A stretch of 48,348 nt of DNA, from the NCBI GenBank assembly GCA_001789045.1, contig MFYG01000020.1:1-48348 (forward strand), written 5' to 3'. This document shows positions 2 to 13,993 of the stretch, piece after piece. The number at the start of each line of letters is the position of its first letter. Positions within the stretch are counted from its first letter, which is position 1. This DNA comes from Candidatus Peribacteria bacterium RIFCSPLOWO2_12_FULL_55_15. GTDB lineage: Bacteria; Patescibacteriota; Gracilibacteria; Peribacterales; Peribacteraceae. The notes under the pieces were generated by a model that did not search any database, was not told the DNA's origin, and saw only the letters and a list, made by a program, of their open reading frames with translations. The translations under genes and the position numbers were made by a program.

Positions 2-1225
2 AAGGACATGTGCGAGGTGAACGAGACGATGTTGGAAAACTTCCTCGCGCACGTCCATTACCATCGGGGGGAGTACGCAACGGAAGCGGACTTCGCCGCC
101 ATCGCGAAGAAGCTCGCCACACTCGAGCACGGGTGGAAGGACGTTGTCCGTCTCGCCTATCTCTCCGTCCCCCCCGCGGTCTTCGCGCCGGTGCTGCATG
201 GTCTCTGCGCCGGGAAAGTTCATAGCCATTCCCGTGGCGGTGACTTCCGGTGCATCGTCGAGAAGCCCGTAGGACAGGACATCGAGAGCTTCGAGAGCAT
301 CGAAAGGGCTCTCACTGCATGCTTTGAGAAGAACGAAATTTTTCTCATCGACCACTATCTTGGCAAAGAGGCGGTACGGAACATCTATTACCTCCGCTTC
401 GCGAACCCCATCCTCGAACGCCTCCTCAAGAACACCCTCATCCACCACGTGGAAATCACCGCCCTGGAAGACGGAGGCACCGAGGGGCGCACGGGGTATT
501 TCGATCATGTGGGAACGTTTCGGGACATGTTCCAATCGCACCTCTTGGAAATTGTTTCCCTCCTCACCATGCGCATGCGGGAGGAAGAGGACGCATTTCA
601 GGACAGTCGCCAGAGCGCCCTCGAGCAATTCTACATTCCTCCGGCAACAAATCTCTCCGACGTGATCCTCCAAGGACAGTACGACGGCTATGCGACGGAG
701 GATGGTGTTGCGCCGCTCTCGCGCACGAATACCTTCATCGCCCTCAAACTCATGTCGCGCGCTTCCCGCTGGGAAGGCATCCCTTTCTACCTCCGCACCG
801 GCAAGCGTTGCGGGCGGAAGGTGACGCGCATCACCGTCCAATTCCAGGAGACGCAACACGTCAACGGCGGCGCGCCGAACCGCCTCGATATCATCCTCCA
901 GGGCGAGGCTGGCATGCGCCTGTATCTCCAGACGAAGCTCGGCGGCACGGAGCCGGCCTTCCGCCCACTCGTCCTGGAAGACCCCCTCGTCTGCGTCGGC
1001 GATTGCCTTCCGGAACACGGCCTTCTCCTCCTCGAGGCAATCCACGGCAAACAGCAGTGGTTCCTCGGCTTCGAGGAAATTCGCGCCGCGTGGCGCCTCG
1101 TGGATCCACTCCAGGCATACCTCGAACAACCGTCCACTGCGTTGCCCATCTATCCTGCGGGGAACGCCGGTCCGCCGGCCGCCGCTGCATGGATCGCGCA
1201 GGATTCGGTACAATGGTTCCCATGA
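2..1225 (+). CDS. zwf: Glucose-6-phosphate 1-dehydrogenase, 5' end cut by window edge
   Basis: Oxidises glucose-6-phosphate to 6-phosphogluconolactone with NADP, the first step of the oxidative pentose phosphate pathway, in the cytosol. About 405 residues are visible of a family usually near 480-510, so roughly the N-terminal 80-100 residues with the Rossmann nucleotide-binding loop lie off the window. Visible family motifs are VEKPVGQD and the substrate-binding and catalytic DHYLGKE. The stop TGA overlaps the ATG of the next gene (ATGA at 1222-1225). The pathway partner pgl follows one gene later, so the set is probably an oxidative pentose phosphate operon interrupted by a surface-protein gene. 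The function is secure; only the start is unseen. Confidence 0.95.
   Translation, partial: KDMCEVNETMLENFLAHVHYHRGEYATEADFAAIAKKLATLEHGWKDVVRLAYLSVPPAVFAPVLHGLCAGKVHSHSRGGDFRCIVEKPVGQDIESFESIERALTACFEKNEIFLIDHYLGKEAVRNIYYLRFANPILERLLKNTLIHHVEITALEDGGTEGRTGYFDHVGTFRDMFQSHLLEIVSLLTMRMREEEDAFQDSRQSALEQFYIPPATNLSDVILQGQYDGYATEDGVAPLSRTNTFIALKLMSRASRWEGIPFYLRTGKRCGRKVTRITVQFQETQHVNGGAPNRLDIILQGEAGMRLYLQTKLGGTEPAFRPLVLEDPLVCVGDCLPEHGLLLLEAIHGKQQWFLGFEEIRAAWRLVDPLQAYLEQPSTALPIYPAGNAGPPAAAAWIAQDSVQWFP
1209..1221 (+). promoter_or_regulatory. Predicted -10 element for leaderless SLH gene
   Basis: TACAAT at 1209-1214 is followed by 7 nt and then ATG 1222. It sits inside the 3' end of zwf and would allow separate transcription of the SLH gene with no leader. 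No good -35 is visible. Inferred from position and the pattern shared with many other genes here. Confidence 0.45.
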
Positions 1226-1953
1226 TGTTCTCCCGGCATCCGTGGACTCTGGTTTTTATGGTCATCGCCATCGGTTCCACGTTCGGTCTTGCGAATCGCC
1301 CACCAGGCAGCGCACAGGCTGCTTTCTCCATCATAGGAACTTTCCCCGATGTCCCCTTCTCGCACACAAACTATGATGCCGTCGAATACCTCGTCAACAA
1401 GGGGATCGTGAGCGGATACCACGATGGAACATTCAAGCCTGAACACGCAATCAATCGGGCGGAATTCACGAAAATTGTTATCGGAGTGCTCTTTACCCCC
1501 CTCGATATCGAGGGTTGCCTCGCGACGATTCCAACCTCTCGGATGTACACCCGCACGCTCATTTTTTCTGATGTCGCACGCCATCAGTGGTTTGCAAAAT
1601 ACGTCTGTCAGGCAAAAGTGGGAGGCATGATCGGCGGGTATCCCGATGGAACCTTCCGTCCAGGCATCGACATCAACTTCACCGAGGCGGCGAAGATCCT
1701 CGCGCATGGTTTCTCTCCTTCCGCCATCGCCCCATCGGATAGTTCCGCTTGGTACGAACCATTCGTGCTCTTCCTGGAACTACGACGGGCGATCCCGCCC
1801 TCCATCAAAAGCTTCGACCAAATCCTCACGCGCGGCGAGATGGCGGAGATGGCGTACCGTCTGCATGCAGACATCCGCCACCTCCACTCTCCCGCCTACG
1901 ACAAGCTTACCTCGAACAAATCCCCTCTCCCCCCCGAAGGGGGAGAGGGATAG
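1222..1953 (+). CDS. Secreted S-layer homology (SLH) domain protein
   Basis: A 243-residue surface protein. An N-terminal signal peptide (about residues 1-35, hydrophobic WTLVFMVIAIGSTFGLA) precedes three SLH-like modules. The first holds FPDV and GIVSGYHDGTFKP, with NRAEFTKIV. The second holds FSDV, MIGGYPDGTFRPG and NFTEAAKIL. The third is degenerate and ends in TRGEMAEMAYRL. SLH modules bind pyruvylated secondary wall polymers in classical systems; the ligand here is unknown. ATG 1222 is chosen because it overlaps the zwf stop and has TACAAT exactly 7 nt upstream. The last residues (PLPPEGGEG) and the TAG stop are encoded by a dispersed palindromic repeat, so the native C-terminus was probably replaced. 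With only SLH modules it may be a wall-anchoring subunit. Confidence 0.85.
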   Translation: MMFSRHPWTLVFMVIAIGSTFGLANRPPGSAQAAFSIIGTFPDVPFSHTNYDAVEYLVNKGIVSGYHDGTFKPEHAINRAEFTKIVIGVLFTPLDIEGCLATIPTSRMYTRTLIFSDVARHQWFAKYVCQAKVGGMIGGYPDGTFRPGIDINFTEAAKILAHGFSPSAIAPSDSSAWYEPFVLFLELRRAIPPSIKSFDQILTRGEMAEMAYRLHADIRHLHSPAYDKLTSNKSPLPPEGGEG

Positions 1954-1963: not shown

Positions 1964-2752
1964 ATGACAGCCAGATTCCTCATAGAGCAAATGCAGACGG
2001 CGCAGCGTGATCATGGGACATGCATCGTTGGCCTCTCCGGTGGCTCAACGCCAAGACTGATGTATGAAGAAATAGGAAAAGCGCTTCGCATGGCCCTTCA
2101 CCCCAACCCTCTCCCGCCCCTCGGCCATGAGCTCGTCGCTCGAGACCCTGAAGGGTTCTCGGACCCTGAACGGGGGGTCGAATGGCGGGGAGAGGGGATT
2201 CACATCTTTCTCGTTGATGAGCGCTACGTTCCACCCGATCACCCAGAGAGTAACCAACGCATGGTACGGGAAACGCTCCTCCAACATCTTCCTCTCCCCG
2301 AAAAGAACCTCACATTTCCCAATACCAACCTCCAAATCGACGCCTGCGTCGCCGATTACGCGCGCCGCCTGAAGGCGCTCTGGAAATATCGGCTTCCTGA
2401 TCTCATCATCCTCGGAATGGGGACGGACGGTCACATCGCTTCCCTTTTTCCGCCACTCTCCGATCTCGCACTCGGAGATACATGCCTCGTCCTCCATACG
2501 CGGGCGCCGGAGGGCATCGGCCCCCCCGATGCGCGGGACCGGATCACGCTGTCACTGAATGCCATCTGCGCTGCGGATAAACAGGTTCTCCTTCTCCAAG
2601 GGGAAGAAAAGAAACGCGCGTGGGAGGAGATGCTGTCTCCCCTCTCCTGCCGCAGCGGGAGAGGGGACGGGGGAGAGGGTCAATGGCCGCTCAAGCGGGT
2701 CATTGCGACGGGAAATCTCACAGTCATAGGACCCGCAACGGCTACCGCGTGA
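1964..2752 (+). CDS. pgl: 6-phosphogluconolactonase with two repeat-derived insertions
   Basis: Hydrolyses 6-phosphogluconolactone to 6-phosphogluconate, directly after Zwf in the pathway. Family motifs are LSGGSTPRLMY, VDERYV and the catalytic-loop signature GMGTDGHIASLFP. At 262 residues it is long for its core. About 35 residues (46-80) between the GGSTP helix and VDERYV, and about 15 residues near 225-239, are translations of dispersed CCCTCTCC-type repeats and do not resemble Pgl; without them the protein would be near 215 residues. ATG 1964 is preceded by GGGTGAGGGAG, itself part of a repeat. It overlaps the convergent cohesin gene by 11 nt. Because the frame stays open through both insertions, it is probably functional, with the insertions in surface loops. 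Confidence 0.9.
   Translation: MTARFLIEQMQTAQRDHGTCIVGLSGGSTPRLMYEEIGKALRMALHPNPLPPLGHELVARDPEGFSDPERGVEWRGEGIHIFLVDERYVPPDHPESNQRMVRETLLQHLPLPEKNLTFPNTNLQIDACVADYARRLKALWKYRLPDLIILGMGTDGHIASLFPPLSDLALGDTCLVLHTRAPEGIGPPDARDRITLSLNAICAADKQVLLLQGEEKKRAWEEMLSPLSCRSGRGDGGEGQWPLKRVIATGNLTVIGPATATA
2098..2202. repeat. Composite palindromic repeat inside pgl, copy 2
   Basis: CCCTCTCCC on the left and GGGGAGAGGGGAT on the right flank an inner segment with CTCGGCCATGAG and GTCGAATGGC. The same inner words recur in the copy at 45160-45230. It is read in frame as about 35 residues of Pgl. Confidence 0.75.
2636..2680. repeat. Palindromic repeat inside pgl, copy 3
   Basis: CCCTCTCCTGCCGCAGCGGG continues into two GGGAGAGG-type runs. 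It is nearly identical over about 40 nt to the copy inside sufU at 43686-43728. It is read in frame near the Pgl C-terminus. Confidence 0.8.
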
Positions 2753-4559
2753 TTTTTTCCAGGCTTTTTTGCAAGTACGCCTCCATCTTTTTCATGTTTT
2801 CCTGCAGTTGCTTCAATGCGTACACACCCTCGACGCTTATGACGTCCTGCGAAGCTTTCGATAGGCGTTCCGCGTCATGCAGAATAAGCTTAAAAATCTT
2901 TGTCACTTCCGCTTCGGCCAATCCCACCCTCAAAGCGAGCTTCCCCTGGCGCTTCTTATAGAACCATGCGCCGCCGCCGAAGCTTCCGAGAAGGAGGAAC
3001 AGGAGAAGGAATGCCGCTCCTCCTTTGCCGAGCTGCATGGAACCGATCTGCAGTACGGGCGCGCTCTTGACCCGTATTGCGGGAGAATCCACGACGAGGC
3101 TGAGAGCGCCGCGCCCATCCCGACTCTGCGCGGTCACCGTGTAGCGCCCGTTGCGCAGTGGCTCGGTGAATGTGGATTCCCAATTCCCTTTCTCGTCAAC
3201 ATGCGCAGACCCCTGGTGAATAAGCTCCGCTTTCCCTGACCGCAAGAGCCGCTGCACCCGGAGCAGGACATCGCTAGCTGGAAATGCCGCTCCTTTAATT
3301 GTTATCCCCCGTTCCTCTTCCGCAAAAAGCTCGCGCGTCACAAAGGCTATCGTGGGAGAAGGAATGGGAAGAGTGGTGAGATCGACGTCGTCTTCGACGC
3401 TGTTGGCCGCCTCGTCGATCGCCCGGACCACCACCCTGTGCGCCCCCGGCGCCTGCAGCGGCAACGCATAGGTCCCCGTAAATCCAATAGCGGGAATGAC
3501 AATTACTTCGCCATCATCGATGCGCAATTGGTATTCCTTCAGACCCGAAAGGGCATCGGATGCTTTCCAATGGAAAACGGGCGCGGGATTGTCCGTCGTC
3601 TCCCCTCCTGAAACGCTCACCTCAAAGGGAGATGGCGGTTTTGTATCGATGGCGATGCGATAGTGCGCAACGGGACTCCAACCGACATTGTTCTTGAGCC
3701 GCACATGGACATACCACATGCCGTTTTCCAGTGCGCCGAATGCCTTTCCCGTGGCCAATTCCTTCTCCGCCGTCTGCGGAACGGTATGCGGACTGTGATC
3801 CAGGGCGGATGCCGCCGCAATCACGGAGTCGGGCATGTTCCAGAACACGACGGTTTCCTCAACATGATTGTTCCAGAGCGCCTCGTCCGGATAGAGAGGC
3901 ACGCGAAGCTCTGGCTTAGGTGGCAAAGAGAGTGCGGGAACGGCTTTTCGCTCAACTTTTACCGGCTGCGGTGCGGCAACCGGCTCCGGTTTCGCGGGCG
4001 GCGGAACCGCCGGCACGGCGGACGGCTCCGGTTGTACTTCTGGTTTTACTTCTGGTTTGACCTCCGGCGGAACCCCCTGCGCACCAACCGTATAGCTTGC
4101 GCCCGATACTTTCGAAAGAATGTTCGTCCCCTTGCCGTCACTCGCCGTCACCGCCGCGTTCGAAAGCGAAAGATTGGCTGTTCCAACGCCAATTGCCTTA
4201 AATTTCAATTTTAGAATCTGCAGCGCGCCCCCCGAAATACCCTTGGATGCGCCGCCGATGAAGCTGACGGCGTTCGCTCCGGCCGCCGCGACGGGTTCCT
4301 CCACCCAAAATTGAAAGACCGAGCCGTCTTTGCTGACCTCGACCAATTCTAAAACACTCGGAGGCCAGGAAATTCTGGCCTGGGCCGCATTGATGCTTTC
4401 CCCTTCGGCATTGATCCTCACATCCGCAACGACGGTCTCTCCGCGGGCATAATTCCCCTGCTTCGGCATCACGTAGATGCCCGCCGCCAGCGCGGCATCT
4501 GCCCCTGCGAAGAAGAGACAGAGAGCAACAACGCCAATGACGAAGCGCGGAGTGGACAT
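2742..4559 (-). CDS. Membrane-anchored cohesin-domain surface protein with Ig-like domains
   Basis: A 605-residue type I membrane protein. It has a signal peptide (about 1-26, cut near ALAA), then a cohesin-like beta module (about 27-160: VMPKQGNYARGETVVADVRI, later LQILKLKFKAIGVGTANL). A Pro/Lys/Glu-rich linker (about 168-215) with KPEVKPEVQPEP-type repeats and two to three Ig-like modules (about 220-500) follow. Near 512-535 is one transmembrane helix (FLLLFLLLGSFGGGAWFY), then KKRQ and a roughly 65-residue charged, helical cytoplasmic tail. Cohesins bind dockerins in cellulosome-like systems; the gene directly upstream in the operon, 5 nt away, encodes a dockerin protein, so the two are predicted partners on the outer face of the cell membrane. 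Cohesin assignment is from sequence pattern; a related bacterial Ig or CBM fold is the alternative. Overlaps pgl tail to tail by 11 nt. Confidence 0.75.
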   Translation of the reverse strand: MSTPRFVIGVVALCLFFAGADAALAAGIYVMPKQGNYARGETVVADVRINAEGESINAAQARISWPPSVLELVEVSKDGSVFQFWVEEPVAAAGANAVSFIGGASKGISGGALQILKLKFKAIGVGTANLSLSNAAVTASDGKGTNILSKVSGASYTVGAQGVPPEVKPEVKPEVQPEPSAVPAVPPPAKPEPVAAPQPVKVERKAVPALSLPPKPELRVPLYPDEALWNNHVEETVVFWNMPDSVIAAASALDHSPHTVPQTAEKELATGKAFGALENGMWYVHVRLKNNVGWSPVAHYRIAIDTKPPSPFEVSVSGGETTDNPAPVFHWKASDALSGLKEYQLRIDDGEVIVIPAIGFTGTYALPLQAPGAHRVVVRAIDEAANSVEDDVDLTTLPIPSPTIAFVTRELFAEEERGITIKGAAFPASDVLLRVQRLLRSGKAELIHQGSAHVDEKGNWESTFTEPLRNGRYTVTAQSRDGRGALSLVVDSPAIRVKSAPVLQIGSMQLGKGGAAFLLLFLLLGSFGGGAWFYKKRQGKLALRVGLAEAEVTKIFKLILHDAERLSKASQDVISVEGVYALKQLQENMKKMEAYLQKSLEKITR

Positions 4560-4564
4560 GGGGA

Positions 4565-6055
4565 CTACATTTTCATGGCCTGGAGGAAAATACTGAAATC
4601 AAAAATACTGATGGCACCGTCTCCGTTCATGTCGTTCTGCAGACGCACGCCTTCATCCTTGTGCCCCCAGCGAAAGAGAAAAATGCTCCAATCGCGGATG
4701 TCGACGGTAGCATCGATATTGAGATCTGCTTTTGGCGACGGAAGCTTTGAAAGTTCAAAAACGCGCGTGAAAGAAAAATTGCTCGCGCTGCCATCCGCGG
4801 CCACCTGCCGCACGCGCGCACTATGTTCCCCGTAGGCAAGATAGGTGGTATCCATGGCAATGGTCCAGAACCCTGAGGCATCCGCCTTTGCTGCGCCGTA
4901 CGTCGTTCCGTCCAGCTCCAATTCTACCGTGTGGTTGGGGGTGGCGAAACCCGCGATCTTCGTCACCGCATTTTTCGTCATAGTGAACTGCTCGAAGCTG
5001 ATGGTCGGCGGAACGAGGATGTCCTTCACCGTCCATACCTCCACATACTTCGGCACATTGAACGCCAGAATACCGGTATCGTTCCCCTCCCGGTCCTTCA
5101 CGCGCAGTGCGAAGAGGAATGCGGCGGCGTCCGTCAGTCCCGTATACTCCACAGAGAAGGAACCGTCCTCGGCCAGCGTCGTGCGTTCCGCGGGTTTGTA
5201 GTAATCGTCGTCGGCGGTTTTGCGCAGGATCTCGACGGTGCTGTCCGGATAGGCCAGGCCGGAGAAGATGACGCGCCGCGGCGGTTTTCCTCCACCTCCT
5301 CCTCCCGTTGTCGGAGAAGGCGCGGAAGTGGACGGCAAGGCCTCAAAGGAAGACGCCACGGAAGAACCGACAGAAGAAGAAATGTCCGAGGATGGCGGAG
5401 CGGAAGAGGCGGGAGCAGAGGACGATGCATCAGAAGAGGAGGCAGGAGCGGATGAGGAAGAGGGAAACGTGTACGTCACGGTCAACGACGGCCAATTGGC
5501 GGCCGTGCCGTTCTCTTTTGTTCCGAAATCAACCTGTTTATTGGTGCCGCTCGTATTGGAAGACCATATGATGCGCCAGCCGTAGTTTGTCACGCTGCCG
5601 TCGACGAAACTGGTCACGTCGCCTGCGACGTCCCACGTGTAGGACCCGACGACGGAAACGGCGGTCGTGGACGCCGGAGAACTCGCGAAATGCGTCCCCG
5701 CCGTGCTGCCGGGAGTATTCCAGGTAACCGTACCATCGGCCCAATCCGCCAGAATGCGGTGCGCGCCGTAATTCTTCACGGTGCTGGCGCTGCCGACGCT
5801 TGTAGCCACCAACGTCAATGTGGCCGACGTGATCGTGGCGCCGGAGGGAATGGCGCCGATATCGAACCGGACGAGACCGTCCCTCGTGTCGCTTGCATCC
5901 ATCACGATTTTGGAGCCGTTGTTCGCGTTCGGCGAACCGCTCTGCACGTAGGAATCGCCCGCTGGAGTAAAACTCTGCGTCTCCGCAAAAGCGACTGGAA
6001 CGTACAAGGAGCAGGATAGGAGAGCTATCGCCGCTACCGGACGGCTCCGCCACAT
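4565..6055 (-). CDS. Secreted protein with DNRLRE/CBM96-like domain, Ig-like domains and C-terminal dockerin
   Basis: A 496-residue secreted protein. A signal peptide (about 1-24, ends AFAE) is followed by a DNRLRE-type beta domain (about 25-195: DSYVQSGSPNANNGSK, GLVRFDIGAIPSGATITSATL, ILADWADGTVTWNTPG) as found on carbohydrate-binding surface proteins. Next come a Ser/Ala/Pro-rich linker (about 198-255), two Ig-like modules, and at about 443-496 a type I dockerin. The dockerin has two calcium loops, DLNIDATVDIRDWS and DMNGDGAISIFDFS, each with Asp/Asn at positions 1, 3, 5 and 12 and a following helix. There is no membrane anchor, so attachment to the adjacent cohesin protein is the obvious inference. 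The start is 1 nt after the response-regulator stop, with a weak GGAG 4 nt upstream. Expression is probably tied to the two-component system upstream. Confidence 0.85.
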   Translation of the reverse strand: MWRSRPVAAIALLSCSLYVPVAFAETQSFTPAGDSYVQSGSPNANNGSKIVMDASDTRDGLVRFDIGAIPSGATITSATLTLVATSVGSASTVKNYGAHRILADWADGTVTWNTPGSTAGTHFASSPASTTAVSVVGSYTWDVAGDVTSFVDGSVTNYGWRIIWSSNTSGTNKQVDFGTKENGTAANWPSLTVTYTFPSSSSAPASSSDASSSAPASSAPPSSDISSSVGSSVASSFEALPSTSAPSPTTGGGGGGKPPRRVIFSGLAYPDSTVEILRKTADDDYYKPAERTTLAEDGSFSVEYTGLTDAAAFLFALRVKDREGNDTGILAFNVPKYVEVWTVKDILVPPTISFEQFTMTKNAVTKIAGFATPNHTVELELDGTTYGAAKADASGFWTIAMDTTYLAYGEHSARVRQVAADGSASNFSFTRVFELSKLPSPKADLNIDATVDIRDWSIFLFRWGHKDEGVRLQNDMNGDGAISIFDFSIFLQAMKM

Positions 6056-6056
6056 A

Positions 6057-6458
6057 TCACTCCGCCGCCGGACGGCGCGTGGTGCCCTTGCGCCCCGCGA
6101 AATACTCCTTCGCTTTCTCCATCACTTCTTCAATCGGATGCTGGGACTTCACAAAATAATCATCCGCGCCCATCTCCATTGCCCGCTTGATTTCCGTATC
6201 CCCGCCGAGATTGGAAAGGACGATGACCGGAATGGAACTCCACTCGGGATTCTTCCGTATTTCTTCCAGCACGAAAAAACCGTCTTTTTTCGGCATCAGG
6301 AGATCCAGAAGGATGAGCGCCGGACGCTCCGCACGTAGTCGCTCCAGCGCCTCTTCGCCGTGGGAAGCGACGTCGACCGTGCACCCATCGGACTCGAGAT
6401 TGTCTTGGAGGGCCTGCCGCAAAAAATCTTCATCTTCAACCACAAGCACGCGCACCAT
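6057..6458 (-). CDS. Receiver-only (CheY-like) response regulator
   Basis: A 133-residue single REC domain with no output domain. It shows the acidic pair (VVEDEDF), the phospho-acceptor Asp in LILLDLLMPKKDG, Ser in VIVLSNLGG (Thr/Ser switch) and the conserved Lys in DYFVKSQHP. Such stand-alone receivers act by protein contact, so the immediate downstream effector is not visible. It follows the histidine kinase by a few nt and precedes the dockerin gene by 1 nt, so it is the cognate regulator. ATG 6458 is preferred over GTG 6473 because MVRVLVVEDE is the usual start and TATACT lies exactly 6 nt upstream. Confidence 0.9.
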   Translation of the reverse strand: MVRVLVVEDEDFLRQALQDNLESDGCTVDVASHGEEALERLRAERPALILLDLLMPKKDGFFVLEEIRKNPEWSSIPVIVLSNLGGDTEIKRAMEMGADDYFVKSQHPIEEVMEKAKEYFAGRKGTTRRPAAE

Positions 6459-6470
6459 GCCCACAGTATA
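6459..6470 (-). promoter_or_regulatory. Predicted -10 element for response regulator
   Basis: On the minus strand TATACT (6470-6465) is followed by GTGGGC and ATG 6458. It is an internal leaderless promoter candidate that would let the regulator, dockerin and cohesin genes be transcribed without the kinase. Confidence 0.45.
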
Positions 6471-6473
6471 CAC

Positions 6474-8345
6474 TCACCCCGCCCACAAGGGAACGCACAC
6501 GCGGAAGGACGACCACCGTCCCTCTTCCGATGCGAACGTGATCGCGGCGCCGATCCTCTTTGCAAGCATGGCGGCGATGTACAAACCGAGACCAGAGCCA
6601 TCCGGCCTCATTTTTTTGGCATTGGAAGCGCGGTAAAAACGCTCGAAGATTTTTTCCCGCTCCGCCGCGGGAATACCGATGCCGGAATCCTGCACGGAGA
6701 GCGTGATGCCGGCGGCATCTTCCTGTGCGTCCAGAATCACTTCCTGTCCACTGTTGGAATACTGAATGGCATTGGAGACAAAGCATTCGAGGATATTCCT
6801 GAGTATCGCCGCGTCGGTCTCCATCATCATGCCCGCGCGCTTGCCCACGGCGTTGCGCAGCACGACTCCCCTGTCCTTCGCAGCCGGTTCCATCATTACC
6901 AGAGCTTCTCCGTAGAGAGCGGCGACAGAGAGCTTCTCCCTTTTGGCCGCAGTGACGCCGGAATCGAGCCGCAAGGCATTCAGCATGTCGAACACGAGCT
7001 TGATCATCCGCTCATTGATCCGATAAATCTGGTGGAGGTACTCCTTCTGCCTGGGCGTCACCGGACCGAGTATTGTGCGATTGAGTGTATCGATCAGCCA
7101 CTTGATGCCGGAAAGCGGCGTGCACAACTGATGGGACGCAAGCGCCAAAAAATCCACGCGCAGTTTTTCCAGTTCCTTTTCCTTCGTAATGTCCCGCTCG
7201 ATGCCGACGAAAAATTTGACATTGTTGTTGGCGTCGAAGATCGGGGAAATGTAGAGATCCGCAACATATTCCCGGCCGTCCTTCCTCCTGTTTTTTATTT
7301 CACCGTGGAAGGTCTTCTTCTCGTCTTTGATGATTTTCCACATCGTGGCATAAAAAGCGCTGCTCATCTGCTTTCCCCAGAGAGACGGCCTCTTTCCAAT
7401 CATGTCCCGCACGGGGAAGCCGGTAATCTGCTGGGCGGCTTTGTTGGCGTAGAGAATCCCCCCATCGGCATCGGTGATGATGATCTGCTCCGCCGCCGCC
7501 TCCGCGGCTTCGTAGAACTTTTTCACGTTCTCCGCTTCGCGTTCGGCCTCGCGGACTTTTTCCCGCAGACTGCTGTAGGATGTACGCAATTTTGCGGCCA
7601 TTTCATTGAAAGAGCGGGCGAGATCGCCGACCTCGTTTTCGGTTTTTATATCAATACAATAGTCCAGATTACCAGTTTCAATTTCCCTAATGCCAATTCC
7701 AAGGCGCTGCAGCGGCTGTAAAATAGAACGTCTTGTAGCATACGAAATGAATCCGGCCGTTATTACAAAAATGAGGATGACCGCAGAAAAAATAACAAGA
7801 ATGTTTCGGTGTTTTCTTTGACTGCGATGGACATACGCCGCCACCATTTCATTATTTTTCCTCAACATTTCCGACCCGTTCTTCTCAATAAAATCTATTG
7901 CTGCAACAACTTGCGGGTTCGTTTCGCCATTGATAACTGTCGGTTCCCGCACAATAACCCCGGCGCGCTCTTTATACTGCTGCCACAGTTCCTCGGACGC
8001 CAATACGACAGGCAAGAGATCCTTCGGGGTCGGGGGGAGCAATACATCATTCGCGATACCAGAAGCAATGCCTCCGTTCTTCAGGGCATAAAAGGAAATG
8101 TCATGAAGATCAATTGCCATTTGCAGCTCCGCTTTGGCCTCTTCTGACCTTTTTCTCACGATCTGTTCTGCGTAGAATCCAATGCGTTGGGAGAGCATGC
8201 GATTTCTCCCTGAAGCATCTACGACGGCTGTATCTGTCTTTTCCAAAGACTGAAAATGATAAACAAGGCTAAGCCCGCCAATATCTACAAGAAAAACCGA
8301 CAAAAAAAGGATGCCGAATTTTTTATGTAAACGCATACTTCGCAT
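6474..8345 (-). CDS. Membrane hybrid-free sensor histidine kinase (PilJ-like sensor, HAMP, PAS, HisKA, HATPase)
   Basis: About 623 residues. TM1 (about 9-30) is followed by an extracytoplasmic domain with a PilJ/NarX-type signature (ASGRNRMLSQRI). TM2 (about 180-205), a HAMP (about 206-260), a coiled coil and a PAS/PAC pair (about 280-390: IIITDADGGILYANKAAQ, KNRRKDGREYVADLYISP) come next. HisKA has the phospho-His in ALASHQLCTPL (about 405), and the ATPase has the N-box VSNAIQYS, G1 DSGIGIP and G2 GSGLGLYIA. The usual HE/QLRTP has Cys in place of Arg. The stop abuts the response-regulator gene, giving a cognate pair and placing surface cohesin/dockerin genes under the same unit. The start is uncertain: ATG 8345, ATG 8336 and TTG 8357 are all possible. 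Confidence 0.93.
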   Translation of the reverse strand: MRSMRLHKKFGILFLSVFLVDIGGLSLVYHFQSLEKTDTAVVDASGRNRMLSQRIGFYAEQIVRKRSEEAKAELQMAIDLHDISFYALKNGGIASGIANDVLLPPTPKDLLPVVLASEELWQQYKERAGVIVREPTVINGETNPQVVAAIDFIEKNGSEMLRKNNEMVAAYVHRSQRKHRNILVIFSAVILIFVITAGFISYATRRSILQPLQRLGIGIREIETGNLDYCIDIKTENEVGDLARSFNEMAAKLRTSYSSLREKVREAEREAENVKKFYEAAEAAAEQIIITDADGGILYANKAAQQITGFPVRDMIGKRPSLWGKQMSSAFYATMWKIIKDEKKTFHGEIKNRRKDGREYVADLYISPIFDANNNVKFFVGIERDITKEKELEKLRVDFLALASHQLCTPLSGIKWLIDTLNRTILGPVTPRQKEYLHQIYRINERMIKLVFDMLNALRLDSGVTAAKREKLSVAALYGEALVMMEPAAKDRGVVLRNAVGKRAGMMMETDAAILRNILECFVSNAIQYSNSGQEVILDAQEDAAGITLSVQDSGIGIPAAEREKIFERFYRASNAKKMRPDGSGLGLYIAAMLAKRIGAAITFASEEGRWSSFRVCVPLWAG

Positions 8346-8369
8346 ACAGCATACCAAGGCAGACAGAAT

Positions 8370-8789
8370 TCACCACGGCACGACTTGCCATGATTTTTTG
8401 GGCCGGCACCGTTCATCGCGGACGCGGACATCGAGGATGTGTTCGATAACGGCGCTCCCCGCGATGCCAATGAGATCTAAACGGTATCCTCCATCGTAGG
8501 CATGTGTCGTCATCCAGCGACGCGCCGCGCGGAACATATTTCGCCGCTTCTCCTTCGTCAGATTAAGTGATGGAACGTAATCATCGTCCAGGCGTGCGCG
8601 ACTCTTCACCTCCACAAAGACGAGCACACGATCCTTTGGGTCCACAGCGATAATGTCGATTTCATCATGCCGCCCGACGCGGACGTTGCGATCAAGGATG
8701 CGATAGCCAAGTTTGCAGAGAAAGTGCGCGGAACAATTTTCTCCCTGTTCGCCGACGACAAAATGAGGATGGGGATTCTTGCATGGCAT
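8370..8789 (-). CDS. yraN: YraN/UPF0102 family endonuclease-like protein
   Basis: 139 residues, the usual length of the family. The family belongs to the PD-(D/E)XK nuclease fold; visible are G-x-x-G-E near the start (VVGEQGENCSAHFL), GYRILDRNVRVGRHDEIDIIA and VFVEVKSRA, which carry the Asp, Glu and Lys of the active-site pattern. Biological role is unknown in general; some members are linked to DNA processing, and comM lies divergently next door. ATG 8789 has TACACT exactly 6 nt upstream (8801-8796), consistent with a leaderless start. Confidence 0.9.
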   Translation of the reverse strand: MPCKNPHPHFVVGEQGENCSAHFLCKLGYRILDRNVRVGRHDEIDIIAVDPKDRVLVFVEVKSRARLDDDYVPSLNLTKEKRRNMFRAARRWMTTHAYDGGYRLDLIGIAGSAVIEHILDVRVRDERCRPKKSWQVVPW

Positions 8790-10451: not shown

Positions 10452-11330
10452 ATGCACTTCGCCGATGCCCTCACCCAGCGCATTCGGGACACTTCCCCTC
10501 TCTCCGTTGGCATCGACCCTGTGATGGAACGCCTTCCCGAAGGAATCCCGAAGACTATCGCCGGTGCCAGCGCTTTCTGTCGCGGCATCATCAATGCCGT
10601 TCACGATATCGCCGCATGCGTGAAGCTGCAACTCGCCTGCTACGAACTTCTTCGGGGAGAGGGAATGCAACTCTTCTGGAAAATTGCTGCGTATGCGAAA
10701 GAACGGGGCCTTGTCGTCATTGCCGACGGCAAGCGGAATGACATCGGATCGACTGCTGCACTCTACGCAGAAGCTTACTTGGGAAAAGGGAGCCCCATTG
10801 ATGCCCTCACCGTTAACCCATATTTGGGAGCTGACAGCATCCAGCCGTTCATCGAGCACTGTGTGCGGAACGACAAAGGAATTTTTGTCCTCGTGAAGAC
10901 GAGTAATCCTGGCTCCATGGATCTTCAGGATCTTCCTGTGGGAGCTGAATCGCTCTTTGAACACATTGGTCAATTGGTCCAACAATTGGGCTTACAACAC
11001 CTCGGTCCGCAGTCGCGCCTCTCCTGCATCGGTGCAGTCGTTGGTGCCACGTATCCGGAGGAACTGAAATATCTCCGCTCTCTTATGCCCAATATCCCTT
11101 TCCTCATTCCGGGCATTGGTGCACAGGGGGGAACAGTCGATGATGTGCACCATGGATTCCTTACGAATGGCACCGGAGCCATTGTTCACGCAACTCGCAG
11201 TGTCATCTATGCATCGAGTGGTAAAGATTGGCAGGAAAAGGCGCGGGCAGCGACAGCAAATATGGCACACTACTTTACTTCCCACTTTGTCCCCTCCGCG
11301 AGCGGCTCCGGCAAATCCACCCAATTGTAA
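10452..11330 (+). CDS. pyrF: Orotidine 5'-phosphate decarboxylase, type 2
   Basis: Converts OMP to UMP, the last step of de novo pyrimidine synthesis. At 292 residues it matches the longer type 2 PyrF group. The catalytic Asp-Lys-Asp array is seen in VIADGKRNDIGSTA, preceded by SVGIDPVMERLP and followed by GVVGATYPEEL-like and LIPGIGAQGG phosphate-binding segments (the first reads GAVVGATYPEEL). ATG 10452 is 5 nt after the comM stop and has TAGAGT exactly 7 nt upstream, partly formed by the comM stop codon. The last 61 nt overlap the convergent SLH-protein gene. Confidence 0.95.
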   Translation: MHFADALTQRIRDTSPLSVGIDPVMERLPEGIPKTIAGASAFCRGIINAVHDIAACVKLQLACYELLRGEGMQLFWKIAAYAKERGLVVIADGKRNDIGSTAALYAEAYLGKGSPIDALTVNPYLGADSIQPFIEHCVRNDKGIFVLVKTSNPGSMDLQDLPVGAESLFEHIGQLVQQLGLQHLGPQSRLSCIGAVVGATYPEELKYLRSLMPNIPFLIPGIGAQGGTVDDVHHGFLTNGTGAIVHATRSVIYASSGKDWQEKARAATANMAHYFTSHFVPSASGSGKSTQL

Positions 11331-12994
11331 TGACCGGCGCCATCGGACCAGCGGAGAGCGCCGCTCTCCCCGATGCTCCCTGGAGCATCAAGAGTCACCT
11401 GGAGTGAGGCATTGTCGCCTGTGCGCTTCACGTCGGCACGGAGAATGAACGTCGTCGGGAAGTCATGGAGAATGCCAAATTCCTCTGTAATAATAGGACA
11501 CGTCACTGTCATGTCGTCCCGGTAGGTGCGGAAGCACTCTATGGACGCCTTTTCTTGTCTCTCAAGCCTCCACCCGGACGCATCGACATTGTGTCTCCAA
11601 ACAGAGAACAGAAGTTCTTCGAGATGTAAGGATGTCTCTGGGAGGAGGTCTCCCTCAAAAGCAAAAGTTGCCACACCCATTTGCTTACCATCGTTCAGTG
11701 TGTCCTGCGCCTCTCCCGCATTGCGGACGCCGGTGATCCGCGCCTTGACGGTCTGATGAACGGGGAATGTCTGCTCCGCAGGCATAATCTCCCACGACAC
11801 GCCCGCCGCAGGATTCTGGAGCATGAGAGAAATGCGCTGGACCCGGAGGAGTTCCCCGGGAATTCCGCCCATTCCCCGCATTGCAAGCTCTGCCGCGAAG
11901 AAGAACGACTGTTCCGCCCCGGAAGAGAGGCGCGAAGCATTGGAAATGTCAAAATCGAGAATCCAGTTCCGGCGCTCCTCGGTATCATTGGTATCCACGC
12001 GAAGCGATCCGAGCTCGTTCCCCGCGGCATCGAGAACGTGAACCCCCTTCAACGATTTTACCTTGCGGTCGAGCCGGAGATGCACACGGCGGACCACGGC
12101 CTCATCCTGCGGATTCAAGAATGTCCCCCGCGCGATGGGCAGAGAGATTCCTCCGAGGAGAAGTTGCCGACTGCGCACGTCTCCATCGCTCCCTCTCACC
12201 ATGGGTGAGGGCTGGGCCTCCTTCTCACCCTCTGCAACCGTACCTTCCTGCTGTAACGTTTCACCCACTATACCCACCTGACCCACTGTACTCATCGCAC
12301 TCTCTTCGTCATCCTCTCCTCCCTCCCGCTCAAGATATTCCTTCAGCGCCCCCTCCCCCTCCGCACGGAATGCGGAGGCTAAGCGCGCCATCTGGCCACG
12401 GGTGAGAGGCGTTGCGAGAGGAATATCCGAAAAGAGAAATACCAAATGTTCTTTCGCGGCTCGTACAGAGGGAGAAAACCATTCATCGTTCGCCGCGACC
12501 GTACGAGGATACTCGTAGATACTCGCGAGCATTTTGAGTGCTTCCGCGTAATTGACAGGATTTTCGGGACGGAACGCTCCGTCAGAATATCCGGAAACAA
12601 TCCCCTGCTCCTTCCCAAAGCAGACGAACGGACTGAACCAGTCGTCCCGCCGAACATCCGGGAAACAGCGCATCGGGCGGGAAGGGAGTTCGCTCGAACG
12701 CGGGGAACTTTTAAGAACGATCTTCAGAAACTCCGCGCGGTTTAGCGTATCTCCCGGGCGGAAAGTTCCGTCGCCGTACCCTTCCACCGCGCCGAGCGAC
12801 GTGAGAAAGCCGATACCGGCAGCCTCCTCCATGGAAAACGGCGCATCGGTGTACTGCAAAGACCGATCGGCGTCCACAAGCACACTCGCAGGGAACGAAT
12901 GCAAGAGCCGACGTGCAAGGAAGGATGCCGCGCTGGCCGCCACCACGAGCGCGAGTACCAGTACACCAACGCCCGTTCGATGCCGCCATTGCAT
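11270..12994 (-). CDS. Large SLH-domain surface protein
   Basis: A 574-residue exported protein. An N-terminal hydrophobic segment (about 8-30, VGVLVLALVVAASAASFLA) may be a signal peptide or uncleaved anchor. Three SLH modules follow (about 55-240): GAVEGYGDGTFRPG plus LNRAEFLKIV, then FPDV and GIVSGYSDGAFRPE plus NYAEALKML, then a third ending TRGQMARLASAF. An acidic linker (about 245-300) includes TVGQVGIVGE from a 9-nt tandem repeat. The rest (about 310-574) is beta-rich with no family recognised (NPQDEAVVRRVHLRLDR, SFFFAAELAMRGMG). ATG 12994 has TAGCAT exactly 7 nt upstream. It is divergent from the methyltransferase gene with only 18 nt between starts. Role: likely an S-layer or wall-polymer-attached surface protein. 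Confidence 0.85.
   Translation of the reverse strand: MQWRHRTGVGVLVLALVVAASAASFLARRLLHSFPASVLVDADRSLQYTDAPFSMEEAAGIGFLTSLGAVEGYGDGTFRPGDTLNRAEFLKIVLKSSPRSSELPSRPMRCFPDVRRDDWFSPFVCFGKEQGIVSGYSDGAFRPENPVNYAEALKMLASIYEYPRTVAANDEWFSPSVRAAKEHLVFLFSDIPLATPLTRGQMARLASAFRAEGEGALKEYLEREGGEDDEESAMSTVGQVGIVGETLQQEGTVAEGEKEAQPSPMVRGSDGDVRSRQLLLGGISLPIARGTFLNPQDEAVVRRVHLRLDRKVKSLKGVHVLDAAGNELGSLRVDTNDTEERRNWILDFDISNASRLSSGAEQSFFFAAELAMRGMGGIPGELLRVQRISLMLQNPAAGVSWEIMPAEQTFPVHQTVKARITGVRNAGEAQDTLNDGKQMGVATFAFEGDLLPETSLHLEELLFSVWRHNVDASGWRLERQEKASIECFRTYRDDMTVTCPIITEEFGILHDFPTTFILRADVKRTGDNASLQVTLDAPGSIGESGALRWSDGAGHYNWVDLPEPLAEGTKWEVK
12268..12294. repeat. 9-nt tandem repeat in SLH-protein linker
   Basis: Three imperfect units of the CCCACTATA / CCCACCTGA / CCCACTGTA type are read on the minus strand as STVGQVGIVG. 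They resemble the 9-nt repeat at 38283-38318. Confidence 0.6.
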
Positions 12995-13012
12995 GGAAGG
13001 TATGCTAGCACA
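12995..13012. promoter_or_regulatory. Bidirectional promoter candidate between SLH and methyltransferase genes
   Basis: The 18-nt gap holds TATGCT (13001-13006, +), 6 nt before GTG 13013, and on the other strand TAGCAT (13007-13002), 7 nt before ATG 12994. The two hexamers overlap. With so short a gap both messages would have to be leaderless. Confidence 0.5.
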
Positions 13013-13993
13013 GTGGATATCGTTCGCTGCCCCATCGATCAACAAGCACTCCGGGAAGACGGAACGGCACTCCGATGCGCGCACAACCACCGCTACAACA
13101 TCGAGCACGGCCTTCCACTCCTCCTCACGCCGACGATAACCACAGAAGAGGAACGGGCACGGCAGACGATGCAGGCATTCTACGAAACTCACACGTTTCC
13201 CGGCTACGACGATGTTGATAGTCCGGCTGTTCTCATGGATAAGGCACAGAAAAGCGCCTTCGGCCTCTGGGTCGATCGGGCGATTTCCCCAACGGTCGCT
13301 GTCCTCGAAGTTGGCTGCGGCACGGGGCAGATGACAAACTTCCTCGGTCTCGTCCAAACGCGCACGGTGATTGGCGTCGACATGAGCCTGCCATCTCTGA
13401 AACTGGGACAGGGATTCAAAGAGCGTTTCGGCCTCCAGAATGTCTCTTTCGCTCAGGGGAACATCTTCGCCATGCCGATCGCAGAGAATTCTATCGACGT
13501 GCTCATCTGCTCCGGCGTCCTCCACCACACGCCAGATCCCAAGGGAGGATTCCAGAATCTTCTCAGGCTTCTCAAGCCAGGGGGGAACATCCTCATCGGC
13601 CTCTACAATACGTATGCACGGATACCTCTCGGACTCCGCAAGACTTTCTTCACGATGACGAGAGAATCCTGTCGCTTTCTCGACGCCCACATGCGTCGTC
13701 GTGACGTCGATCAAGCGAAGAAGGAAATCTGGTTCGCCGATCAGTACCGGAATCCCCATGAATCCTGGCACTCCGTCGACGAAGTCCTCCGATGGTTCGA
13801 TGAATCCGGCGTGAAATTCCTCAGCGCCGTACCAGCAATCAGTAAGAATCTCCCCGGGGAAGATTCTGGATTGCGTCTCTTGGAAGAACATCCGAGAGGT
13901 TCATCCCTCGAACATATCTCCCGGCAACTGTCCTGGATGTTCACGATCGGACGTGAGGGGGGATTGTTTGTCATGGTTGGAAAGAAACAGTAA
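13013..13993 (+). CDS. Class I SAM-dependent methyltransferase with N-terminal Trm112-like segment
   Basis: 326 residues. The N-terminus (DIVRCPIDQQALREDG ... LRCAHNH) resembles a Trm112-like segment of UbiE/MenG-type or rRNA methyltransferases, though only part of the zinc cysteines are present. The methyltransferase core has motif I VLEVGCGTGQMTNFLG, a post-I VIGVDMS and motif IV-VI segments DVLICSGVLHHTPDP and LLKPGGNILIGLYN. The substrate cannot be told; it lies at the edge of the glycan region. GTG 13013 is chosen because TATGCT lies 6 nt upstream and earlier starts would run into the divergent SLH gene. Confidence 0.85.
   Translation: MDIVRCPIDQQALREDGTALRCAHNHRYNIEHGLPLLLTPTITTEEERARQTMQAFYETHTFPGYDDVDSPAVLMDKAQKSAFGLWVDRAISPTVAVLEVGCGTGQMTNFLGLVQTRTVIGVDMSLPSLKLGQGFKERFGLQNVSFAQGNIFAMPIAENSIDVLICSGVLHHTPDPKGGFQNLLRLLKPGGNILIGLYNTYARIPLGLRKTFFTMTRESCRFLDAHMRRRDVDQAKKEIWFADQYRNPHESWHSVDEVLRWFDESGVKFLSAVPAISKNLPGEDSGLRLLEEHPRGSSLEHISRQLSWMFTIGREGGLFVMVGKKQ

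Follow-up and report, generated by a model that had tools for sequence, protein, structure and literature searches.

The stretch of DNA analysed here, hereafter the window, comprises 48,348 nucleotides (nt) of Candidatus Peribacteria bacterium RIFCSPLOWO2_12_FULL_55_15 (assembly GCA_001789045.1, contig MFYG01000020.1, positions 1 to 48,348). It is the start of a 154,843-base contig in a draft genome of 0.896 Mb and 24 contigs. Within this contig lies a cassette of four consecutive open reading frames (ORFs) on the minus strand, all of them open, which span 2742-8357 and encode a sensor histidine kinase (HK), a receiver-only response regulator (RR), a dockerin protein and a membrane cohesin protein, here called the anchor. 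Successive genes are spaced by 0, 1 and 5 nt. An earlier sequence-only reading of the window had described four tightly spaced genes in this order and a small genome, as we also find. Transmembrane (TM) segments were located with a hydropathy window and signal peptides were read by eye. The four genes, with protein lengths in amino acids (aa), are as follows.

6474..8357, minus strand: HK, 627 aa from a TTG start, recognised by its Pfam domains; an alternative ATG start at 8345, the boundary given in the earlier reading, makes the protein 4 aa shorter

6057..6473, minus strand: RR, 138 aa, GTG start; Response_reg 88.4 bits (cut-off 30.2)

4565..6055, minus strand: dockerin protein, 496 aa, presumably secreted (signal peptide read by eye), CBM96/DNRLRE with a dockerin at the C terminus

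2742..4559, minus strand: anchor, the membrane cohesin protein, of 605 aa, with a signal peptide read by eye

The anchor is made of four parts.

4062..4487, minus strand: cohesin module as modelled, aa 25-166 (AlphaFold2, Foldseek, VIA-align)

3036..3944, minus strand: Ig-like region, aa 206-508, with Big_13 at aa 448-484 (29 bits, cut-off 27)

2964..3032, minus strand: single C-terminal TM helix, aa 510-532 (hydropathy)

2745..2963, minus strand: tail behind the TM helix, aa 533-605, with a positively charged start (from the sequence; location and helices presumed)

The N-terminal region had been taken for a cohesin, and the structural comparisons agree. The AlphaFold2 model of the module, built from 64 sequences, has a predicted local distance difference test score (pLDDT) of 93.9. 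Among the best 50 PDB rows, 49 come from cohesin entries both with Foldseek (the first 47 all being cohesins) and with VIA-align, whose best match is 6kgc_A (Z 15.3, root mean square deviation (rmsd) 2.3, 131 aligned positions). The only non-cohesin entry among the best 50 structural rows is 9ifr, a CLIPPER adhesin domain. The Pfam search by which the sequence-only reading proposed to check the cohesin (PF00963, cut-off 24.1 bits) gave a divided answer: 23.2 bits, just under the cut-off, in hmmscan and 26.7 bits, over it, in a genome search. The cohesin of a related locus (L054) scores 32.7 bits with the same profile. There is one PF00963 match in the genome and one cohesin module in the anchor. 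As had been proposed, the protein has one C-terminal TM helix, and no LPXTG-like sorting motif was found in it. The tail of about 72 residues past the helix had been missed, and is probably cytoplasmic and helical.

Two modules were delimited in the dockerin protein.

5474..5980, minus strand: CBM96/DNRLRE module, aa 26-194 (CBM96 57.8 bits, cut-off 26; DNRLRE 87.5 bits, cut-off 34)

4568..4729, minus strand: dockerin module, aa 443-496, with two calcium-type loops (profile and model)

The E-values of 1.5e-15 for CBM96 (Pfam) and 1e-24 for DNRLRE (NCBIfam) agree with the DNRLRE-like module of carbohydrate-binding type already suspected. The two intact calcium loops previously reported are equally apparent, as two complete D-x-N-x-D...D loops can be read by eye and the ligand columns (Asp/Asn) are more than 90% conserved at most positions in alignments of 23 and 56 sequences. 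A dockerin family profile (56 sequences) found the dockerin 2y3n_B as its best PDB match (E 5e-11), with further dockerins ranking next and EF-hand proteins below. The model of the module has a pLDDT of 86.4; its best Foldseek match is again 2y3n_B, with a weak E of 0.07, and all 16 VIA-align rows are dockerin entries (best Z 6.2, which is middling, rmsd 2.6, 56 aligned positions). Moreover, eight of the ten related dockerin proteins scanned pass the cut-off of the Dockerin_1 profile (PF00404, 22.9 bits).

The cohesin module has the fold found in the cellulosomal pairs (PDB 2y3n, 6kgc, 2vn5), and the dockerin module probably does too; in these pairs, a secreted protein likewise ends in a two-loop dockerin. 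The cassette differs from these pairs by its single dedicated cohesin on a TM anchor, by the lack of any enzyme domain seen and by its kinase and receiver. A small cellulosome-like or other enzyme-bearing complex degrading polymers would fit the joint presence of cohesin, dockerin and carbohydrate-binding module, and in the available text of one study, expressed cohesin and dockerin genes of Shapirobacterales, a lineage of the candidate phyla radiation (CPR), are read as cellulosomal (PMC9123182). We nevertheless regard such a complex as very improbable here. A cellulosome is recognised by a scaffoldin with several cohesins, whereas the window anchor and the related anchors of its clade (see below) have one each. 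A domain scan recognised no catalytic domain in the window dockerin protein or in ten related dockerin proteins, and GH5, the only cellulase or enzyme family searched for, has no match in the genome, in keeping with the earlier remark that no cellulase was visible; a subtilisin-like protein with one dockerin-type loop does occur there (see below).

Neighbouring dockerin and cohesin genes are a recurrent feature of the phylum (Patescibacteria/CPR). By scanning named genomes with the dockerin protein, we found two loci, in Kaiserbacteria (L016) and Lloydbacteria (L017), where the receiver, a DNRLRE-dockerin protein and a cohesin-TM protein follow one another in order, with a PAS kinase upstream. 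The gene order is thus kept in relatives, a check that the sequence-only reading had proposed, and its recurrence at these two loci and on further contigs rules out a chance arrangement. Among 379 genomes sampled evenly from the phylum, 96 have a match to the cohesin protein, 121 to the dockerin and 69 to both (Fisher p 3e-21). We then compared the 70 best dockerin matches with the cohesin matches listed: 57 of them lie within 5 kb of a cohesin match among the matches listed.

The loci differ in layout. Type A loci combine a kinase and a receiver with a single cohesin-TM protein and a single, often large, dockerin protein. At type B loci, a dockerin protein of about 300-450 aa is found with a small (about 300 aa) and a large (about 590 aa) cohesin-TM protein and no adjacent kinase; some kinase-less loci have other layouts. 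We built a tree of 66 anchor proteins from ORFs of more than 390 aa matching both the cohesin and the Ig-region profiles, which excludes L016 (broken frame), L061, L147, L148 and L006. The type A anchors, including that of the window, share a common ancestry and form one clade of 27 rows with a support of 100/100. A kinase or a receiver lies within three genes of the anchor in 19 of these 27 rows, vs. none of the 39 rows outside the clade. Among the remaining clade rows, L133 has a receiver directly downstream that the scripted ORF picking had overlooked. At six others (L126, L128, L129, L142, L143, L145), a contig end truncates the anchor or the dockerin gene, and a kinase-receiver pair faces a contig end elsewhere in the genome; for five of these six pairs, an open-ended ORF comes next. 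The eighth row, L048 (G190), was outside this contig-end search. The clade occurs in at least 25 of 383 genomes, and its sizes are lower bounds, since only the best-scoring loci were fetched and some rows were excluded. The receiver may stand before or after the surface pair, so the kinase/receiver link survives rearrangement. In evolutionary terms, kinase and receiver are bound to the surface pair.

The cassette joins its neighbours at two points, to which no strand is assigned.

2742..2752: left junction, where the 3' ends of a PGL-like gene (plus strand) and of the cohesin gene (minus strand) overlap by 11 nt

8357..8370: right junction, between the HK gene and a YraN-like gene (8370-8789, minus strand)

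The cassette was probably acquired by horizontal transfer as a four-gene block, because its flanking genes PGL and YraN are adjacent without any insert in own-family relatives (4 of the 8 own-family loci: L186, L187, L189 and L190). Of the other four loci, one has PGL and YraN about 0.5 kb apart, two have PGL near ComM without a YraN match and one has neither. In 47 own-family genomes, no match to the cohesin module was found; four of them match only around residues 299-405, in the Ig-like region. The nearest anchor (58% identity; 72% for its dockerin) comes from G468, a genome drawn from the class of G305, and the kinase core and the receiver of the window are also closest to those of type A carriers. 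The flanks have another ancestry. On one side, ComM shares 64-71% identity with own-family copies and 45-52% with the copies of type A carriers; on the other side, Zwf shares 58-66% with own-family copies, and ten type A carriers yield two matches to it, both weak (27-30%). The nearest anchors thus belong to another class, in a draft of 24 contigs, as would be expected had a piece of another CPR genome been joined in during assembly or binning. We practically dismiss such an artefact: the cassette lies inside a single contig between genes of own-family ancestry, the order of the flanks is conserved and the guanine plus cytosine (GC) content of the cassette (0.559) equals that of the window (0.561). 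Two proteins that are S-layer-homology-like by eye (window 808-1953 and 11270-13891) flank the region. The labels SLH, PGL, YraN and PyrF are provisional assumptions of ours.

Four features of the kinase and the receiver are used below.

7944..8240, minus strand: PilJ-type sensor domain of HK, aa 40-138 (PF13675, 36.4 bits, cut-off 26.6, E 5.9e-9)

6957..7160, minus strand: HisKA domain of HK, aa 400-467 (42.3 bits, cut-off 26.9)

6486..6815, minus strand: HATPase_c domain of HK, aa 515-624 (75.2 bits, cut-off 26.4)

6135..6149, minus strand: KSQHP motif of RR, aa 109-113, after the conserved Lys (motif class comparison)

The kinase has PilJ, HAMP, PAS, HisKA and HATPase_c domains, each above its Pfam cut-off, and two clear hydrophobic segments. 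The regulator consists of a receiver domain only, with no DNA-binding domain recognised in the Pfam scan. Going by these Pfam scores, a kinase with HisKA and HATPase_c and its receiver partner would make up a two-component system. A motif of the form K[STA][QS]H[PAS] follows the conserved Lys in 24 of 31 receivers at type A loci and in none of 17 other receivers, which are ORFs from 20 fetched, lower-ranked matches to the window RR and hence biased away from it. For five of the seven locus receivers lacking the motif, a second receiver at the locus bears it. The sixth is that of L127 (G440), where the motif check left aside the receiver on contig C50, and the seventh that of L143; in the genome of L143, a receiver with the motif stands at a contig end (L215). 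Outside the 31 counted is the receiver of L133, which bears the motif. Receivers without a KSQHP-type motif are also present at L016, L125, L127, L135, L140 and L146, and a different pattern, centred on YYL.K..W or the like, is common to five of these six. Furthermore, when the window RR is compared with 32 genomes and self matches are set aside, eight of its ten best matches (54-66% identity) lie beside type A anchors or on contig-end pairs, the two others being found away from such loci (G557:C14, G305:C2); the best own-family match shares 48% identity. By motif and by similarity, the receivers at type A loci are a distinct kind.

These observations bear on whether the two-component genes and the surface pair have merely been inherited together, through a shared operon only or through transcriptional control with other genes via an unlinked factor. 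The receiver has no DNA-binding domain and no known target, and most cohesin-dockerin loci in the phylum have no kinase, both of which would suit co-inheritance without direct coupling. We find it unlikely, as the link holds across the anchor clade despite a receiver placed upstream or downstream, and the receivers concerned are of their own kind.

The inputs of the kinases vary between loci. The window HK has its PilJ domain, and the kinases of ten relatives scanned have FAD/NAD oxidoreductase, CHASE, GAF or PAS domains and, in one case, a weak dCache. No single signal therefore defines the system. The dockerin proteins vary as well: ten others from type A loci carry CBM96 with fn3, InlB-type repeats, YDG repeats, VPS10/BNR or Ig-like domains, and in some of them nothing is recognised beyond the dockerin. 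Inputs and payloads thus vary around a constant cassette core. The sequence-only reading had proposed a signal-regulated attachment device; its modules and its membrane anchor stand, as does the link to a two-component system, which is non-random. Its suggestion that pilus contact could be the signal is not supported: the PilJ-type domain is present, but PilJ is a family name and no sign of pili. In McpN, the ligand of the PilJ domain is nitrate, a property that is not general to PilJ domains according to the available text of the study (PMC6381276). With the nitrate N-box ([IVL]-[ND]-x-A-G-x-Q-R-M-L-[ST]-Q), the window HK agrees by eye at 8 of the 10 specified positions; the exact box was not found in its PilJ domain, as two specified positions depart from it. 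The PilJ sensor region alone gave one match in the PDB (E 0.8). Given the nitrate ligand of McpN and the variety of inputs, we set pilus contact aside as an unsupported signal.

The coupling could also run the other way, from outside to inside. The anchor would then be a receptor, in which occupancy by the docked protein, or pull on it, is passed through the TM helix and the tail to the kinase, and the receiver acts on unlinked targets. The anchor does have a tail behind its TM helix, and among the 15 complete kinases at type A loci, five have no hydrophobic segment and three more have one marginal window; kinases without a clear TM segment may need a partner to sense the outside. The other seven kinases, including the window HK, have clear TM segments, often with an input domain of their own, and the tails are poorly conserved and also occur in kinase-less anchors, which leaves this alternative rather doubtful. 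We think that inside-out control of display is more likely than outside-in sensing.

In our reading, the cassette holds a single secreted, adhesin-like protein on the cell surface by an anchor of its own, and a two-component system is coupled to this display. The dockerin protein would be exported, and its C-terminal dockerin would dock into the cohesin module of the anchor, probably with calcium. We propose this docking because of the folds, the topology and the conserved gene pairing. The single-pass TM helix of the anchor would hold the complex on the cell, the N-terminal CBM96 module would bind a glycan or another outside target, and phosphotransfer from kinase to receiver would couple display to the environment. 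We give a probability of about 0.58 to this surface-display cassette, probably transferred, in which a dockerin protein held on a dedicated cohesin anchor is coupled to a kinase and a receiver. A more specific version is tentative and, in our view, has only a minor chance of being correct: a mobile cassette for signal-gated, non-covalent display, in which varied kinase inputs (PilJ-type, FAD/NAD redox, CHASE, GAF) and a receiver with a KSQHP loop would decide whether and where the adhesin is held by its own anchor, attachment to host cells or particles being switched post-translationally from inside.

Several observations weigh against our reading. The window cohesin is borderline by its Pfam score. 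The window dockerin is below the Dockerin_1 cut-off (15.1 bits in hmmscan, 17.5 in another search), so the PF00404 search, also proposed with the sequence-only reading, fails for this protein alone, and it is the family profile and eight of the ten relatives that support a dockerin. Among the matches listed, 13 of the 70 best dockerin matches have no cohesin match within 5 kb. It is not proven that the contig-end kinase-receiver pairs would join the contigs carrying the anchors. The tail has a mean identity of 0.26 in the alignment, vs. 0.45 for the cohesin module, and similar tails are found in anchors without a kinase; with such low conservation and such a distribution, contact between tail and receiver is not indicated. 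The loop after the conserved Lys of receivers often contacts the kinase, so the KSQHP-type motif may be a sign of pairing with the kinase and not of output. Lastly, equal GC means that composition does not show transfer, and that a transfer would not be recent; loss in other members of the family, instead of gain, is possible.

Two further roles considered for the tail were rejected. A histidine phosphotransfer domain would show a conserved His, and we saw none on aligning the tails, and the conservation of 0.26 is too low for a strongly conserved receiver-docking site.

Other cohesin- and dockerin-like genes were met in the course of the analysis. In the same genome, a second candidate pair (P0010/P0011, contig C4, L003:1345-2806, also seen as L240) consists of a 109-aa two-loop dockerin-like protein and a 390-aa fn3 protein, whose start it overlaps and which has a TM segment at its C terminus. 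The dockerin-like member has an hhalign probability of 74, and the putative cohesin-like N-terminal part of the 390-aa protein one of 8.7, with no Pfam cohesin. Of 59 related genomes, 48 have a match to the 390-aa protein, in some cases by the fn3 part alone, and a two-loop protein lies just upstream at 5 of the 12 loci viewed. This is perhaps a native pair of the family. On contig C19 of the same genome (L002:1390-2325), a protein that is subtilisin-like by eye has one dockerin-type loop close to the C terminus (19 bits, cut-off 22.9). A 255-aa protein in which a cohesin-like module is combined with a dockerin-like one, each scoring below its cut-off, has the appearance of an adaptor-like fusion (L050:6890-7654). 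Runs of open frames of about 600-720 aa with dockerin matches, 7 and 8 per genome, are found in G143 (contig C27) and G169 (contigs C33 and C36); they are possibly tandem arrays of dockerin proteins, and no cohesin match from these two genomes is among the matches listed. Finally, in G061, a genome of the same class, a 748-aa protein (L006:1225-3471) has two regions like the cohesin part of the anchor and internal hydrophobic segments, and adjoins a DnaA-like gene.

Cohesins and dockerins also occur outside cellulosomes, in Archaeoglobus (2xdh) and in NagJ/NagH of Clostridium perfringens (2ozn), and these are structural matches to the cassette modules. To our knowledge, neither case involves a membrane anchor with a tail or a linked two-component system. 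In the Lap system of Pseudomonas (LapA/LapD), retention of an adhesin at the cell surface depends on signalling. The cassette may be compared with it in the way it would work only, as Lap uses other proteins and another second messenger. Within the same broad bacterial group, the Shapirobacterales genes mentioned above and an essential dockerin protein of a cultivated Patescibacterium, SEML1_0315 (PMC10633639), have the same modules. The available text of these two reports describes no adjacent pair, no membrane cohesin anchor and no kinase link. In the cohesin and dockerin literature searched, with preprints and most subscription papers outside it, no description of the paired cluster or of a kinase link was found. 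Cohesin-dockerin anchoring is already known, as are cohesin and dockerin genes in CPR; what would be new is an anchoring of this sort that is single, dedicated, held in the membrane and linked by evolution to a two-component system.

Many CPR bacteria are presumed to live on other cells, and how members of this group retain proteins at their surface and time their attachment is poorly understood. With a recurrent dockerin-cohesin pair, they would have a surface anchor that is non-covalent, and in the kinase-linked subclass attachment would become a trait under regulation. As far as the available text on the essential dockerin protein goes (PMC10633639), the general idea is testable in a cultivated Patescibacterium. 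The cassette would be a regulated means of holding other cells or surfaces, and would extend cohesin-dockerin biology from plant-wall degradation to signalling and adhesion.

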